A stretch of DNA of 64,000 bases from Exiguobacterium sp. J17977 (lineage in GTDB: Bacteria; Bacillota; Bacilli; Exiguobacteriales; Exiguobacteriaceae), in assembly GCF_018616375.1 (NCBI RefSeq), contig NZ_JAEQBB010000002.1:1-64000 (forward strand). Reading direction: 5' to 3'. The notes below the pieces were generated by a model that searched no databases, was not told the origin of the DNA, and saw nothing but the letters and a program-made list of their open reading frames with translations. Shown here one piece after another: positions 55,119 through 62,478 of the stretch (positions within the stretch are counted from its first letter, which is position 1; each line of letters opens with the position of its first letter). Both the position numbers and the translations under genes were made by a program.

Positions 55119-55146
55119 GGTTTACATAATAAGTTATCGTAAACCT
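55119..55146. repeat. dif-like site, left copy
   Basis: A 28-bp site. Its GGTTTACATAA arm is the complement of the XerD-side arm TTATGTAAAC of Bacillus dif, then a 6-base core TAAGTT, then ATCGTAAACCT. The outer ten bases are also a perfect inverted repeat (ATAGGTTTAC at 55116, GTAAACCTAT at 55139). It overlaps the last codons and the stop of the recombinase gene. The first 19 bases are identical to the copy at 57424, in the same orientation. Confidence 0.7.
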
Positions 55147-56144
55147 ATCATGGCTTGTTTTTTCTTCTCGTCGCCGATATGGGCATATACTTGTGTCGTC
55201 GCCACCGATTCGTGACCGAGCAGCTGTTGAATCGTCAGCACGTCAATCCCACTCATAGCGAGCCGGGAGGCGAACGTATGCCGGAGTTTATGCGGCGTGA
55301 CCTGTTTATGCGTCAAGAACGGCAAATACGGTTTCAAACGGTCGATGTGTCCCTTCAACGTGTGTTGCACCGTCCGCACCGAGATGCGCTTGCCTCGCTC
55401 CGATTGGAACAGCGGACCTGACCCGTGACGTCGAAAGGTGTCGAGGAGCGGCTCGAGCGGGGAGGCGATTGGGATGACCCGTTCCTTGTTGCCTTTCCCG
55501 ATGACGCGAATCGTTCCGCTTTCGCGGTCGATATCGTTCCAATCGAGACCGACGAGTTCCGAGACACGCATGCCGGTCAAACCGAGCAGTTGAATCATCA
55601 AGAAATCACGGTCTCGATTGCGCTCGTACCAGCTCGCCTCGCGGTCGGACATACCGACGTTGCTGCGGACGAGCGTCGAGAAGTCGAGCCACTCCTGCTC
55701 CGTCAAATAGACCGGGTTGCGTTTGGCACGCTTCGGCCGCTCGACCGCCTGGAACGGGTTGTGGGCCGTAACGCCCGTCTCAATCAAATGGTTGAACAGC
55801 GATTGCATCGTGGACAATTTACGGTTGATGACGCTCGGGGCGTTATCGAGCTCGAGTGCGAGATACGTCGCGTACGCCTCGGCCCCCGCGTGATCAAACT
55901 CGACGAACGAGTCAATCTCGACCGTCGAAGGGTCGACCTCAGATGCGCTGGCGGCCTCGACCCAGCGGAAAAAATCTAGAAAGTCATACAGATAGCGCTG
56001 CGCGGTCTGTTCGGAATAGTGTTTGGCGGCCAGGTGGTTCAAGAAACGCTGGATGAAGCTCGGCATGCGCTCGTAGCCGCTCAAGTTAAAACGTTTCGTC
56101 GCAACCTTCGTCGGCGCCTGTCCGAGTTGGCGAAATATACTCAA
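55134..56144 (-). CDS. Tyrosine recombinase, Xer-like
   Basis: Site-specific recombinase of 336 residues. The N-terminal SAM-like core-binding domain (about 27-145; IQRFLNHLAAKHYSEQTAQRYLYDFLDFFRWV) precedes the catalytic domain with Arg in GLTGMRVSELVGL, Lys in GKGNKERVIP, HKLRHTFAS, LGHES and the nucleophile Tyr in TTQVYAHIG. It is longer than XerC/XerD (about 300) because of an N-terminal extension and an insert near residue 160-185, and resembles XerS-type or integrase-type enzymes. Its 3' end overlaps a dif-like site, and a second site lies beyond the GGDEF gene, suggesting these are its targets. Confidence 0.85.
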   Translation of the reverse strand: MSIFRQLGQAPTKVATKRFNLSGYERMPSFIQRFLNHLAAKHYSEQTAQRYLYDFLDFFRWVEAASASEVDPSTVEIDSFVEFDHAGAEAYATYLALELDNAPSVINRKLSTMQSLFNHLIETGVTAHNPFQAVERPKRAKRNPVYLTEQEWLDFSTLVRSNVGMSDREASWYERNRDRDFLMIQLLGLTGMRVSELVGLDWNDIDRESGTIRVIGKGNKERVIPIASPLEPLLDTFRRHGSGPLFQSERGKRISVRTVQHTLKGHIDRLKPYLPFLTHKQVTPHKLRHTFASRLAMSGIDVLTIQQLLGHESVATTQVYAHIGDEKKKQAMIGLR

Positions 56145-56159
56145 AAGATCTCTCCTTGC

Positions 56160-57215
56160 TTACTGATGGATTGACGTGACGATCCGGTCCTTGCCTTCCT
56201 GTTTGCCGGCCCGGAGCCGGTCGTCCGCCTCTTTGACGAGCGTGTCGACGGCCTCGAAACCGGTCCGTGTCGTGACGCCGAACGTCATCGTGACACTGAG
56301 CCGACGGCCGTCATAAATCGTCTCGAGTGCTTTGATGCGTTGCCGCAAGCGCTCAACCGTCTCCATGGCCTCGGTCGCGGACTGGTCCGTCAAGAAGATG
56401 AGGAACTCCTCGCCGCCCCAGCGGATGGCGATTCCGTCGGTTCGGGTTAATGCGGAGGCGACTTGTTTGAGCACGAGGTCACCGCAGTCGTGCCCGTGTT
56501 GCTCGTTGAACACCTTGAAGTGGTCGATGTCTCCTAGCGCGACGGCGTATGGCCGACCGCTGATGACGGCCTCGCGAATCCCGTCTTCGACCAACCGATA
56601 ACCGGTCGTCCGATTATACAAACCGGTCAGCCCGTCCCGTGAGGCGAGCGTGTGTAACCGTTCGTTCGTCCGCTCGAGTTCGGACGTCACCTCGACGACG
56701 GACCCTTCGAAGATGAACGACAGACCGGCAATCAAGGCGATCGTCGACAAGAGGCAAAAGAGGCCCAAGATTTGCTCGAACGATGGCGTGAGCGGTTGCG
56801 TCCCTGTCGTCACATTCACGTATAGGAAACCGTAGATGGTCATGGCGAGCATCGTCGAGGCGACCCGGATGGACCGACTGACGTTCGGCATGAAGAACAC
56901 GCCATAGGCGACCATGATGATGAAATAGTGGACGTTCGCACCCCAACCGAGCACGACCGTCGAGATGATGGCGTTATAGACAACCTCGACGAACAGGCCG
57001 ACAAAGAACGCCCGATAATATCGTTTATGTACAAAATAAAAGGATAGCGTGTAATAGAGAACACTGAGTAGATTCGACCAGGCGAGTACCGTGACATCGA
57101 GTTGCCAAAACGTGATCAAGAACACGACGTGGATGAGCCAAGCGAGCGCGTTCCCGTAAAAAGTGATGCGGTAATTGTATAGTGTACCGCGACGTTCCTC
57201 ATAGGCAGTTCCCAC
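56160..57215 (-). CDS. Membrane-bound GGDEF diguanylate cyclase
   Basis: Cyclic di-GMP synthase of 351 residues. Six hydrophobic segments (about 20-185) form an N-terminal membrane sensor, followed by a coiled-coil linker (VVEVTSELERTNERLHTLASRDG) and a GGDEF domain with active site RWGGEEF, plus DIDHFKVFNEQHGHDCGD for Mg2+ and GTP. The inhibitory RxxD site before GGEEF is degenerate (RTDG), so feedback control may be lost. GTG 57215 is seven bases from AGGAGG. It lies upstream of the recombinase on the same strand with 15 bases between, so one transcript is likely. Confidence 0.88.
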   Translation of the reverse strand: MGTAYEERRGTLYNYRITFYGNALAWLIHVVFLITFWQLDVTVLAWSNLLSVLYYTLSFYFVHKRYYRAFFVGLFVEVVYNAIISTVVLGWGANVHYFIIMVAYGVFFMPNVSRSIRVASTMLAMTIYGFLYVNVTTGTQPLTPSFEQILGLFCLLSTIALIAGLSFIFEGSVVEVTSELERTNERLHTLASRDGLTGLYNRTTGYRLVEDGIREAVISGRPYAVALGDIDHFKVFNEQHGHDCGDLVLKQVASALTRTDGIAIRWGGEEFLIFLTDQSATEAMETVERLRQRIKALETIYDGRRLSVTMTFGVTTRTGFEAVDTLVKEADDRLRAGKQEGKDRIVTSIHQ

Positions 57216-57324
57216 GCGAACACCTCCTGACTCTAAGTATACCGAACTGACATCGATTTGCCCATGGGCGTTCGAGAATCGAGTCAATCGTGTCCTTGCG
57301 AACGCTTTAAATGCGTACATATAA

Positions 57325-57350
57325 TTGCGTGAAATAGATATTTCACGCAA
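57325..57350. promoter_or_regulatory. 26-bp palindrome upstream of the GGDEF gene
   Basis: TTGCGTGAAATA, GA, TATTTCACGCAA: perfect 12-bp arms with a 2-base centre. No T tract follows, so it is more likely an operator than a terminator. It lies 110 bases upstream of the GGDEF start, within its likely promoter region. Confidence 0.5.
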
Positions 57351-57423
57351 CGTTCGTTCGCACTGCATTTTCATCCGAGACACACATCGACCTGAGAACC
57401 GGAGAAAAAACGTCATATAATAT

Positions 57424-57451
57424 GGTTTACATAATAAGTTATGGTGAACCA
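57424..57451. repeat. dif-like site, right copy
   Basis: It has the same GGTTTACATAA arm and TAAGTT core as the left copy, but ATGGTGAACCA in the other arm (differences at positions 20, 23 and 28). Same orientation as the copy at 55119, 2305 bases away. Confidence 0.7.
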
Positions 57452-57568: not shown

Positions 57569-57973
57569 ATGGACGATCAACGTTTGAAACAATGGCTCAC
57601 CGAGGCGAAGACGATCGCTGTCGTCGGCGTGTCAGCGAACCCGAACAAGACCGCGAACCAAATCGCGGACTATTTGATTCTGCAAGGTTACACAGTCATC
57701 CCTGTCAATCCGACGCTCGAGACGTGGAACGGACGCAAAGTCTATCCGACGGTCGAGAGCATCCCGGGGCGCGTCGATATCGTCGACGTCTTCCGACGCA
57801 ATGAGTATTTGGCCGGCGTGGCCGAAGATGCCGTCCGACATGGGGATGTCGGTCTCGTCTTTAACCAGCTCGGGCTCACCAGCCCGGACGCCGAGCGGAT
57901 CGCTCGCGATGCCGGACTCGACTACATCGAAAATCGATGCATCTATGTCGAGCACGCCCGCCTTCTCGGTTAA
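57569..57973 (+). CDS. yneT: CoA-binding protein (YneT-like)
   Basis: A 134-residue protein with a Rossmann-like CoA-binding fold (as in succinyl-CoA synthetase alpha): TIAVVGVSANPNKTANQIADYLILQGYTVIPVNPT, then YPTVESIPGRVDIVDVFRR and the C-terminal ENRCIYVEHARL. Function is unknown. In Bacillus yneT directly precedes parE and parC, as here, which supports both the call and a terminus-proximal location. ATG follows GGGGGAT. A terminator lies between it and parE. Confidence 0.9.
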   Translation: MDDQRLKQWLTEAKTIAVVGVSANPNKTANQIADYLILQGYTVIPVNPTLETWNGRKVYPTVESIPGRVDIVDVFRRNEYLAGVAEDAVRHGDVGLVFNQLGLTSPDAERIARDAGLDYIENRCIYVEHARLLG

Positions 57974-58004: not shown

Positions 58005-58102
58005 CACGAGCCCAGCTCGCGGAGGGAGGCTTGCCAGAATTTAAAAACAGCTATACAATAGGTAAGAAAAACGAACGTGTGTTCGAAATTGAGGTGACGA
58101 AG

Positions 58103-60070
58103 ATGTCAACAGACTTATTTAACTACAATGAAGACGCCATCCAGGTGCTCGAAGGACTGACTGCCGTCCGGAAACGTCCGGGGATGTACATCGGTTCGAC
58201 CGACCATCGCGGCTTGCACCATCTCGTCTATGAGATCGTCGATAACGCAATCGATGAGGCGCTCGCCGGATTCGGTGGCCAAATCGATGTGACCATCCAT
58301 AAAGATGACGCCATCACGGTACGAGACCACGGGCGTGGGATGCCGACGGGGATGCACGCCTCCGGGAAACCGACGCCAGAGGTCATCTTCACGGTCCTTC
58401 ACGCCGGCGGTAAGTTCGGCCAAGGCGGCTACAAGACGTCAGGTGGACTCCACGGGGTCGGCGCCTCGGTCGTGAACGCACTCTCGAGCAAGGTCCTCGT
58501 GACGATTTATCGCGACGGCAAAGTGTTCGAGCAGACGTTTGCCGACGGCGGGATCCCGCAGACGACGCTCCTCGAGACCGGAAAGACGCGTCAGACAGGG
58601 ACGAGCGTCTACTTCAAACCGGACGCCTCGATCTTCTCGACGACGACATACAACTACGACACGCTTGCCGAACGGCTCCGTGAATCAGCCTTCCTATTAA
58701 AAGGATTGACGATCACGCTGACGGACGAGCGCTCTGGAAAAGAAGAGACGTTCCATTACGAGGAAGGGATTGCCGAGTTCGTCCAATATTTGAACGACGA
58801 CAAGGCAACGCTTCATCCGATCGTCTACTTCGAAGGGACGGAGAACGATATCGAGCTCGAGCTCGCCTTCCAGTTCACGGACGCCTATTCCGAGAACGTC
58901 CTCTCGTTCGTCAACAACGTCCGGACACGTGATGGCGGTACGCACGAGGTCGGCGCCAAGACGGCGATGACCCGCATCGTGAACGAGTACGCCCGTAAGA
59001 ACGGATTGTTGAAGGAAAAAGACAAGAACCTCGACGGCGGAGACGTCCGTGAAGGCTTGACGCTCATCGTCTCGGTACGGATCCCGGAAGAGTTCCTCCA
59101 ATTCGAGGGGCAGACGAAGTCGAAACTCGGCTCGCCGGAGGCCCGCACGAGCGCCGATGGTGTCATGGCCAAACAACTGACGATCTTCCTCGAGGAGAAT
59201 CCGCAGATGGCGACGATGCTCATCAAGAAGGCGATTCGTGCCGCCCAGGCCCGCGAAGCCGCCCGGAAAGCCCGGGAAGAGGCTCGCAACGGCAAGAAGA
59301 AGAAACGTTCGAGCATCTTGAACGGGAAACTGACTCCGGCGACGTCTAAGAACGCCGCCAAGAACGAACTGTTCCTCGTCGAGGGTGACTCGGCCGGCGG
59401 TTCGGCCAAACAGGGCCGTGACCGGACGTTCCAGGCCATCCTGCCGCTGCGCGGGAAGGTCATCAACTCGGAGAAGTCGAAACTCCAGGACATCATGAAG
59501 AACGAGGAGATCAACACGATCATCCACGCGATCGGGGCCGGGGTCGGCCACGACTTCGACCTCGAGGACTGCAACTTCGACAAAATCATCATCATGACCG
59601 ATGCCGATACGGACGGGGCCCACATCCAAGTGCTCTTGTTGACGTTCTTCTTCCGTTATATGCGCCCGCTCGTCGAGGCCGGCAAAGTGTTCGTCGCCTT
59701 GCCACCGCTCTATCGGATTTCGAAAGGGAAAGGCAAGTCGGAACAGTTCGAGTATGCTTGGGACGAAGAGGCGCTCGAGAAGCTCGTCAAAGTGTATAAG
59801 AAGGGCTATATCCTCCAACGCTACAAAGGTCTCGGTGAGATGAACGCCGACCAGCTGTGGGAGACGACGATGAACCCGGACACACGGACGCTCATCCGTG
59901 TCACGGTCGACGACGCTGCCGTCGCCGACAAGCGTGTCTCGGTGCTCATGGGAGACAATGTCGCCCATCGCCGTGAGTGGATCGAGGAGAACGTCGCCTT
60001 CGGCCTCCAGGAAGATGATTCGATCATCGCCAATGAACACGTGACTAAAGCGATTGAGGAAGTGATGTAA
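58103..60070 (+). CDS. parE: DNA topoisomerase IV subunit B
   Basis: ATPase subunit of topoisomerase IV, 655 residues, which with ParC decatenates replicated chromosomes. The GHKL ATPase has [22 protein letters not shown] and [15 protein letters not shown]; the transducer domain follows, then TOPRIM with [15 protein letters not shown] and DADTDGAH, and RYKGLGEMN at the end. ATG 58103 is preceded by GAGGTGA; an upstream in-frame region is not family-like. parC follows after two bases. The EGDSAGG region shows no known quinolone-resistance change. Confidence 0.97.
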
Positions 60071-60072
60071 CG

Positions 60073-62478
60073 ATGTCGACGATTCAACACATTTTAAACT
60101 TGTCGCTCGAACAGGTCGTCGGTGACCGCTTCGGGCGTTACTCGAAATATATCATCCAGGACCGGGCCCTCCCGGACGCGCGCGACGGCCTCAAACCCGT
60201 TCAGCGCCGCATCCTGTATGCGATGCACCATGAAGGTAACACGAACGAGAAACCGTACCGCAAATCGGCCAAGACGGTCGGGAACGTCATCGGTAACTAT
60301 CACCCGCACGGTGACAGTTCCGTCTATGAGGCGATGGTACGCCTGTCGCAGGACTGGAAGTTGCGTTACCCGCTCATCGACATGCACGGGAACAACGGCT
60401 CGATGGATGGCGACTCGGCTGCCGCGATGCGGTATACCGAGGCTCGTCTGTCGAAGATTGCCGGTGTCATGCTGACGTCGATCTCGAAGAACACGGTCGA
60501 CTATACGCCGAACTTCGACGATTCGACCGAGGAGCCGCTCGTCTTGCCGTCACTCCTCCCGAACCTGCTCATGAACGGGACGACGGGGATCTCTGCCGGT
60601 TATGCGACCGAGATTCCGCCTCACAACTTGACCGAGGTGCTCAACCTCGCCATCGCTCGCTTGAAGGGCGAGGTCGAGACGACGAATGACGCGTTCCGTT
60701 ATATGCAAGGACCTGACTTCCCGTCTGGCGGGATCGTCATGGGCAAAGACGGTATTTTGAAGGCGTTCGAGACCGGCAAAGGCAAGGTCATCATCCGTGC
60801 CAAATCGGTCATCGAGCCGCTCAAGGGAGGTCGTGAACAGATCACGATCACCGAGCTTCCATATGAGGTGAACAAGGCGAACCTCGTCAAGAAGATGGAA
60901 GAGCTCCGTCTCGACCGTAAAGTCGAAGGTGTCGCTGAAGTCCGTGACGAGACCGACCGGACCGGCGTCCGTGTAGTCATCGAGTTGAAGAAGGAAGCCG
61001 ATGCGGAAGGTGTGCTCCATTTCTTCTTGAAGCATACCGACCTGCAACTCGCCTATAACTACAACATGGTCGCCATCGTCAACCGGACACCGAAACAGAT
61101 GGGCCTGTTGCCGATCATCGACGCATACTTGAAGCATGTCGAAGAAGTCGTCACCCGACGCACGACGTTCGAACTCGACCAGGCGAAGAAACGCGCCGAA
61201 ATCGTCGACGCGCTCGAACAGGCCATCTCGGTCTTGGACGAGACGCTCGAACTCATCCGGTCGGCCAAAGACAAGTCCGAGGCGAAGCAGAAGCTCATGG
61301 AGCGGTTCTCGTTCTCGGACCGCCAAGCCGAAGCGGTCGTCATGCTCCAACTCTACCGGTTGACGAACACGGATATCGTCGAGCTCCAGAAAGAGGCGAA
61401 GGCACTCCAGAAAGAAATCACCCGCCTCGCCAACATCTTGAACGTCGACGCCACGAAACGGAAGCTCATCTCGAAAGAGTTGACGGCGCTCCGTGACGAG
61501 TTCGGCGACGCGCGGCGCTCGGTCATCGAGTCCGAGGTCGAAGAGTTGAAACTGAAGACCGAAGTCATGATCGCCGTCGAAGAGACGATGGTGTTCGTCA
61601 GTCGTGACGGGTACGTCAAACGCTCATCGATGCGATCGTATGGCGCCTCGAGCGACGATATGCCGGACATGAAGCAGAAAGACCGTCCTGTCCTCGTCAC
61701 TCAGGCGATGACGACGGATCACTTGCTTGTCTGGACGAACAAAGGCAGCTACTTGCTCATCCCGGTCCATCAGATTCCGGAGTCTAAATGGAAGGACGCC
61801 GGACAACATGTCGCCAACCTCGTGCCGATCGAAGGCGAACAAGTCGTCTCGGCCGATGTCGTCTCGACGTTCGACACCGACGCGCACTGTCTGTTCGTGA
61901 CGCGTGAAGGGATGGTCAAACGGACGCCGCTCCGTGACTATGACGCCCAACGCAAGTCGAAGGCGCTCATGGCGCTCAAGCTGAAAGGCGACGACGAGGT
62001 CGTCTTTGCGGGCATCAGTGACGGGCCAGGCCAACTGTTCCTCGTCTCCGAGCGCGGTTACGGCCTCTGGTTCAAAGAAGATGACGTGCCGGTCGTCGGC
62101 CAGCGGGCCGCCGGTGTCAAAGCGATGAACTTGAAGGATGGGGACATGGTCGCCGATGCCTTCGCCTTCTTCACACCGCCACTGTTCGTCCTCGTGACGC
62201 AACGTGGAGCGGTCAAGAAGATGAAGCTCGAGGACCAGTTCGACTGCACGAACCGTAATTTGCGCGGGACGATGCTCATCCGCGAAGTCAAATCGAAACC
62301 GCACCAGATTCGTCGTGTGCTCCCGGTCCATGACGATGAGACGCTCCACATCATCGGGAAAGAGAAAGCGAAGACGGTCAAGACGAAGCAATTGACGCTT
62401 CTAGACCGCTACGCTAATGGCTCGTTCGTGTTTGATGAAGAGACGTTCGGAGAGATTGAGGACGTGTACCTCGATTAA
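60073..62478 (+). CDS. parC: DNA topoisomerase IV subunit A
   Basis: DNA breakage-reunion subunit of 801 residues. The winged helix contains the resistance-determining stretch HPHGDSSVYEAMVRL (Ser and Glu as in sensitive strains), and the catalytic Tyr is in AMRYTEARLS (about 119). A coiled-coil follows and the C-terminal beta-pinwheel (about 495-800) lacks the gyrase QRRGG box, separating it from GyrA. ATG 60073 is two bases past the parE stop, with GGAAGTGATG in the parE end as ribosome binding site. A terminator follows. Confidence 0.97.
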   Translation: MSTIQHILNLSLEQVVGDRFGRYSKYIIQDRALPDARDGLKPVQRRILYAMHHEGNTNEKPYRKSAKTVGNVIGNYHPHGDSSVYEAMVRLSQDWKLRYPLIDMHGNNGSMDGDSAAAMRYTEARLSKIAGVMLTSISKNTVDYTPNFDDSTEEPLVLPSLLPNLLMNGTTGISAGYATEIPPHNLTEVLNLAIARLKGEVETTNDAFRYMQGPDFPSGGIVMGKDGILKAFETGKGKVIIRAKSVIEPLKGGREQITITELPYEVNKANLVKKMEELRLDRKVEGVAEVRDETDRTGVRVVIELKKEADAEGVLHFFLKHTDLQLAYNYNMVAIVNRTPKQMGLLPIIDAYLKHVEEVVTRRTTFELDQAKKRAEIVDALEQAISVLDETLELIRSAKDKSEAKQKLMERFSFSDRQAEAVVMLQLYRLTNTDIVELQKEAKALQKEITRLANILNVDATKRKLISKELTALRDEFGDARRSVIESEVEELKLKTEVMIAVEETMVFVSRDGYVKRSSMRSYGASSDDMPDMKQKDRPVLVTQAMTTDHLLVWTNKGSYLLIPVHQIPESKWKDAGQHVANLVPIEGEQVVSADVVSTFDTDAHCLFVTREGMVKRTPLRDYDAQRKSKALMALKLKGDDEVVFAGISDGPGQLFLVSERGYGLWFKEDDVPVVGQRAAGVKAMNLKDGDMVADAFAFFTPPLFVLVTQRGAVKKMKLEDQFDCTNRNLRGTMLIREVKSKPHQIRRVLPVHDDETLHIIGKEKAKTVKTKQLTLLDRYANGSFVFDEETFGEIEDVYLD

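Follow-up and report, generated by a model that had tools for sequence, protein, structure and literature searches.

What does a recombinase gene do when it lies between two dif-like sites, next to the genes for topoisomerase IV? Such a locus is found in Exiguobacterium sp. J17977, within the 64,000-nucleotide stretch of contig NZ_JAEQBB010000002.1 analysed here (hereafter the window; the genome is G000). An earlier note on the window had described two dif-like sites, a recombinase gene and a GGDEF (diguanylate cyclase) gene, all of which are real and were correctly placed (Table 1). It had offered two explanations: a small mobile element integrated at dif, with the two sites as attL and attR, or a XerS/difSL-like single-recombinase system. 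The locus was compared with its counterparts in the family Exiguobacteriaceae, which comprises the window's genus (g1) and a second genus (g2), and with other Bacilli.

Table 1. Features of the recombinase locus, its surroundings and the related plasmid copies (window positions unless another contig or locus is named).
Feature	Position	Strand	Remarks
Site 1, 27-bp dif-like quasi-palindrome, GGTTTACATAATAAGTTATCGTAAACC	55119..55145	.	Overlaps xerX stop codon
xerX (working name), Xer-type tyrosine recombinase, 336 aa	55134..56144	-	TTG start; stop codon within site 1
GGDEF (diguanylate cyclase) gene	56160..57215	-	15 bp upstream of xerX, same strand
26-bp palindrome, TTGCGTGAAATA-GA-TATTTCACGCAA	57325..57350	.	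Single copy in G000; near site 2, upstream of the xerX operon
Site 2, 27-bp dif-like quasi-palindrome, GGTTTACATAATAAGTTATGGTGAACC	57424..57450	.	Direct repeat of site 1 in G000
yneT-like CoA-binding protein	57569..57973	+	CoA-binding domain; flank at the site-2 side
parE and parC (topoisomerase IV)	58031..62478	+	Named from their translations; between the xerX locus and the classical-type dif
Classical-type dif of G000	contig 65817-65844		1.8 kb past the window end, 10.7 kb from site 1
Asymmetric palindromes	L135:2758-2783, L136:2669-2694, L177:1872-1897		Small plasmid-like Exiguobacterium contigs
Asymmetric palindromes	L178:4721-4746, L179:3075-3100, L180:3623-3648		Small plasmid-like Exiguobacterium contigs

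The product of xerX matches the Pfam model of the phage integrase catalytic domain (PF00589, Phage_integrase) with 125 bits, and its residues R193, K217, H285, R288, H311 and Y320 are invariant in a 15-row alignment; with this catalytic domain and the R-K-H-R-H-Y set, it is a Xer-type tyrosine recombinase. It scores below the curated cut-offs for XerS (147.9 against 267 bits), XerC (190 against 335 bits) and XerD (175 against 330 bits), and in a recombinase tree, which flags long branches, the XerS rows form a supported group separate from XerX. Values of dN/dS for xerX are 0.042, 0.047 and 0.104 in three g1 pairs, the fourth of the four pairs being saturated. Purifying selection and the invariant catalytic residues together suggest that the enzyme is active.

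XerX belongs to the family as a whole. It is present in 19/19 g1 genomes, the window's included, with relatives at 75–97% identity (97% in G008), and the g2 proteins are 56–59% identical to that of the window. At E<=1e-55, a sample of the class contains the recombinase in 27 of 299 genomes, all 27 from this family (14 g1, 13 g2), and in none of the 272 other Bacilli. The earlier note had proposed counting xerC and xerD homologues, and a XerD-model search of 38 family genomes (19 g1, 19 g2) and four Paenibacillus supplies the count: all 38 family genomes encode XerX (164–190 bits with this model), a XerD above its cut-off, and a second, XerC-like protein at 256–281 bits. In G000 the XerC-like protein is encoded downstream of a gene read as trmFO and itself remains below the XerC cut-off (303 against 335 bits).

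The natural unit of each site is a 27-bp quasi-palindrome, which refines the 28-bp repeat described before; within the window, sites 1 and 2 differ at two positions over these 27 bp and at a third in base 28. Read in the sense of the recombinase gene, they are GGTTTACGATAA-CTTA-TTATGTAAACC and GGTTCACCATAA-CTTA-TTATGTAAACC, with near-symmetric arms, one of which has an extra base. The 18-bp part common to both, searched with up to 3 mismatches, is matched twice in the window, against 0.01 matches expected from shuffles. Across the whole 2.94-Mb genome, a looser site pattern finds just sites 1 and 2 at 0–1 mismatches, together with 28 weaker matches at 2–3 mismatches, which is about the control level, and a second site pattern likewise matches just these two.

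Relatives were compared at 33 loci (19 g1 and 14 g2), the core being defined as the bases between ATAA and TTATGT, four in g1 and five in g2; the site-2 row of locus L039 was six bases out of register in the script, and its core read by eye, TTATG, still differs from the site-1 core TTATA. Two sites flank xerX in 33/33 loci, with or without a GGDEF gene between them: at one end, site 1 abuts the stop of the recombinase gene or overlaps it; at the other, upstream, site 2 precedes the gene or operon. A site pattern with up to 2 mismatches has exactly two matches, both at the xerX locus, in 18/19 g1 genomes, and G004 (g1) has a third, weak one. Site 2 is a direct repeat of site 1 in 12 of the 19 g1 loci and is inverted in the other 7 and in all 14 g2 loci (21/33 overall). 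The core identity pointed out in the window holds there and is uncommon among the relatives, since the two cores differ in 28 of the 33 loci and are the same in 5: four of the 19 g1 loci, all direct and the window's genome among them, and one of the 14 g2 loci. In 29/33 loci the pair is inverted, mismatched in its cores, or both.

The reading as a dif-integrated mobile element fails on these grounds: xerX is fixed in the 38 family genomes, the GGDEF gene is not, mismatched cores and inverted sites do not fit attL and attR, and dif itself lies across parEC. The empty site that was to prove insertion was not seen, because all 38 family genomes searched carry the recombinase. IMEX also have two dif-like sites around a short segment; the xerX locus differs from them in encoding its own recombinase, in its position away from dif, in the prevalence of inverted or core-mismatched pairs and in the lack of any empty site among the relatives, although the pair in the window does have the identical cores expected of an IMEX. 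Two loci deserve mention for their flanks. In G007 (L009:1-1440) an insertion sequence, IS3-like by reading, directly adjoins site 1 and replaces part of the terminator; an insertion at site 2 of G006, where the flank differs, was considered and ruled out, as the yneT-, parE- and parC-like genes follow normally.

The GGDEF gene most plausibly begins at GTG 57215, which is likelier than TTG 57452. Its short distance from xerX and shared strand indicate that the two genes are probably one operon; the protein carries a GGEEF motif, and its N-terminal half looks hydrophobic by eye. An in-frame GG[DE]EF motif is present in 18/19 g1 loci (the exact motif being absent from L014 of G018) and in 0/13 g2 loci, whose site 2 is near the start of the recombinase gene; this distribution makes the GGDEF gene an operon passenger in one genus, which would have joined the xerX operon in g1 or been lost in g2. 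On the site-2 side, an exact yneT-like start motif stands at the expected place in 26/32 loci, the remaining six having no exact motif. In g2, upstream of xerX (L035–L047), site 2 is flanked on either side by a conserved unit containing CTCAGTTGCA that hardly varies among 13 loci.

The locus lies near the replication terminus. The GC skew, whose switch position the earlier note had asked to check, changes sign near it in G007 and G005, with both coarse and fine skew; the cumulative maximum is 23–24 kb away in these two genomes and 10 kb away in E. sibiricum, and a second terminus estimate, from the strand polarity of short words, peaks 12–24 kb from the locus and so comes no closer than GC skew does. 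On the far side of parEC lies a classical-type dif, (T/A)(T/C)(T/C)A(C/T/G)TGATAA-TATATG-TTATGTWAACT, found in 8/9 genomes with DNA that reaches the expected place, 6–11 kb from the xerX locus (G000, G007, G005, G006, E. sibiricum and g2 loci L120, L130 and L133; about 6 kb in g2); in G323 none was seen in the stretch read, which ends about where the site is expected. An XerCD pair presumably uses this site. Where fine data exist, in three genomes, this dif is 14 to 17 kb from the skew maximum; skew by itself therefore cannot pick between dif and the xerX locus. Searches with Bacillus XerC-arm patterns had left Exiguobacterium without a classical dif, a result overturned by the site across parEC: these patterns missed it because its XerC-side arm has diverged to ..TGATAA, and their sensitivity is moderate, as with up to 1 mismatch they find dif-type sites with TATATA-like cores in 15/38 other Bacilli.

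Other Xer-type sites were encountered as well. Sites near CTTCCNATAA-N6-ATATGTWAAC occur in L248, L249, L250, L251, L252, L253, L263, L264 and L266, many of them on smaller contigs, and in L243 and L265 of another family; G017 has two such sites 1.8 kb apart, 5–6 kb from xerX. They bring to mind the pdif sites of Acinetobacter. In G021 (L272:570-597), a dif-like GGTTTACATAA-ATAATG-TTATGTTAACT is separated by about 0.9 kb from a XerS gene, with another Xer-like gene some 30 kb off.

The third element of the locus, the palindrome, is identical in 19/19 g1 loci within a region that otherwise drifts, and its differences in 13/13 g2 loci are confined to the two central bases; a further g2 genome, G323, has TTGCGTGAAAT-GATA-ATTTCACGCAA, and in G221 (g2, L045:2574-2599) the centre is flipped, AACT for AGTT. 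With up to 2 mismatches it is found in 38/38 family genomes and in 0/360 other Bacilli sampled. Scanning named genomes for exact matches gave 27 stretches, 23 from Exiguobacterium and four from Paenibacillus; in the latter, the palindrome is just ahead of a recombinase gene that has one or two dif-like sites after it (AGTTAACATAA-CTATAA-TTATGTTAACT beside the recombinase of P. luteus). At 3.10 of 6.29 Mb, the palindrome locus of P. castaneae stands about 138 kb off the skew maximum in the stretch read. These four genomes (G398–G401) encode XerD and a XerX-like protein, with near-palindromic dif-like sites beside the XerX-like gene, and with the XerD model show nothing scoring from 192 to 321 bits, the interval occupied by the Exiguobacterium XerC-like proteins. 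In the tree, whose deep support is weak (78/80) and whose long branches are flagged, the Paenibacillus recombinases stand apart from Exiguobacterium XerX, joining instead three Paenibacillaceae-type proteins without the palindrome. The palindrome thus accompanies recombinases of two lineages; a single clade of Exiguobacterium and Paenibacillus recombinases is not rejected (p-AU 0.106).

An asymmetric form of the palindrome is carried by six small plasmid-like contigs of four genomes. In 6/6 of these, [GC]TTTGTGAAA starts exactly 62 bp before it, with diverged sequence between the two, and the module runs in the order [GC]TTTGTGAAA, terminator-like stretch, asymmetric palindrome; seven non-chromosomal contigs had matched the palindrome pattern, and L181, with a different-looking match, was left out of the 62-bp check. 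BLAST against 72,556 plasmids found the module in five records, all from Exiguobacterium, one of which covers 42% of the query. Resolution site and replication element are both possible roles for the module. A literature text search with two 10-base parts of the palindrome gave nothing relevant by title among the matches listed. It is conceivable, if doubtful, that TTGCGTGAAATA-NN-TATTTCACGCAA represents a second kind of resolution site at the terminus, in addition to dif, kept at one per chromosome with identical arms in most Exiguobacterium and some Paenibacillus; the third Xer recombinase would act on it or synapse it, together with the flanking dif-like sites, and small plasmids would borrow the asymmetric form, along with a helper motif at the fixed 62-bp distance, for monomerisation.

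The explanation tentatively favoured here, at somewhat less than an even chance, is that the locus is a vertically inherited, chromosomally fixed Xer module near the terminus, consisting of XerX, two cognate dif-like sites and the palindrome, and providing a second, terminus-bound resolution. Its starting points (the presence and conservation of the module, its place near the skew switch, the architecture of its sites and the dif-type site nearby) are read directly from the genomes compared; the mechanism is a proposal built on them. XerX alone would bind both arms of sites 1 and 2. It would exchange site 1 with site 1 and site 2 with site 2 between sister chromosomes, like with like because the two cores usually differ, and so would not excise its own gene; the role would be a second resolution of dimers or catenanes, bound to the terminus. 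What most strongly ties the sites to XerX is a change of spacing in lockstep: both are one core base shorter in 19/19 g1 genomes than in g2, while the spacing of dif is 11-6-11 in four g1 and four g2 genomes and has not changed between the genera. Sites 1 and 2 thus co-vary with each other and not with dif, and seem to follow XerX. If there is recombination, the core mismatches are the strongest sign that it pairs sister copies rather than the two sites with each other. Several points tell against this model. XerD could bind the sites, as their right arm is the XerD arm of dif; with a classical-type dif 6–11 kb away, another system for resolving dimers is not needed; and the proximity of xerX to the terminus may be mere proximity to dif. 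Free recombination between the sites ought to allow xerX to be deleted in the four g1 genomes with identical direct cores, and the role of the palindrome falls outside the model's account.

A rather unlikely alternative is that the locus is a domesticated relic, in which an ancient element carried xerX, with its attachment sites, to the vicinity of dif before the two genera separated and the sites now serve only as operators or loops that control the xerX operon. This would account for sites on both sides of xerX and for the loss of core identity in 28/33 loci, and the terminus and dif have been described as favouring DNA mobility (in the part of PMC2731167 drawn on here). It fits less well with the signs of an active enzyme, namely the invariant catalytic residues and purifying selection, with the two-arm architecture kept at both sites (albeit with a weak left arm at site 2 in g2), and with the lack of an empty site or excised form in the loci read.

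Two further alternatives are improbable. The first divides the sites between two proteins, XerX on the left arm and XerD on the right (TTATGTWAAC), so that XerX has replaced XerC at both sites and XerC–XerD serve dif. The right arm is indeed the same as the XerD arm of dif, opening with TTATGT, and forms the better conserved half, while the left arm is variable, above all in site 2 of g2; moreover, the four Paenibacillus with such sites have XerD and the XerX-like protein and nothing between 192 and 321 bits. However, in g1 the left arms nearly mirror the right arm, which points to a single protein binding both, and the spacing changed in the g1 sites and not in dif, although the same XerD would act at both.

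The second of these, to which we give an equally small chance, has XerX recombine at the palindrome, which would be a true second dif, and assigns sites 1 and 2 to the XerCD type. The palindrome has one chromosomal copy per genome, non-coding and near the terminus, with symmetric arms around a variable centre and different neighbours in Paenibacillus; the asymmetric copies of the plasmid-like contigs, with their 62-bp spacing, are what could be expected of resolution sites that borrow a host recombinase, and the dif of Legionella likewise has uninterrupted arms, of 10 and 12 bp (as given in an excerpt of PMC9765430). Yet a position upstream of a promoter also suits an operator, the recombinases beside the same palindrome do not group (with the weak support and long branches mentioned, and one clade at p-AU 0.106), and the co-variation of spacing points to sites 1 and 2.

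Comparison with described systems (XerS, XerH, XerA and XerL; in the portions consulted of PMC5357621, PMC3025954, PMC9765430 and PMC2731167) places the favoured module beside XerS/difSL of streptococci and lactococci, which also combines a recombinase longer than XerC/D with a terminus site that has an extra base in one arm (PMC5357621, in part). What stands of the earlier comparison with XerS/difSL is a gene adjacent to sites that are putatively its own, near the skew switch, with near-symmetric arms and the extra base; what does not is that XerS/difSL is a sole system with one site, whereas XerX has two, falls below the XerS cut-off and shares its genomes with XerC- and XerD-like proteins (38/38) and a dif-type site (8/9). 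With XerCD/dif, the XerX sites share the right arm TTATGTWAAC, a length of 27–28 bp and a place near the terminus; they differ in that the dif-type site is separate, 6–11 kb off, and in the spacing of the g1 sites. A XerCD pair and a XerS occur in one genome in Lactobacillus helveticus DPC 4571, the extra recombinase near the skew switch, but this is one strain and a possible intermediate, with no site for its XerS in the part of PMC3025954 used here, whereas XerX is found in all 38 family genomes and has candidate sites. XerL/dif of Legionellales resembles XerX in having a single recombinase, a palindromic terminus site and a related plasmid site; in L. pneumophila, xerL lies >400 kb from dif and XerCD was not found (both points from a portion of PMC9765430). 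No mention of Exiguobacterium is found in the main text of PMC3025954 or in the full texts searched of PMC5357621, PMC9765430 and PMC2731167, and among the literature matches listed that name Exiguobacterium or Paenibacillus, none concerns the xerX locus by title.

Single-recombinase systems are usually read as replacements of XerCD. If the favoured explanation is true, a third Xer recombinase and its two sites have been kept within about 11 kb of dif since the split of the two genera, so that two Xer systems can coexist, which poses the question of what the second one is for. The palindrome connects small plasmids with the chromosome terminus in two families, and it offers a short, well-defined DNA target.
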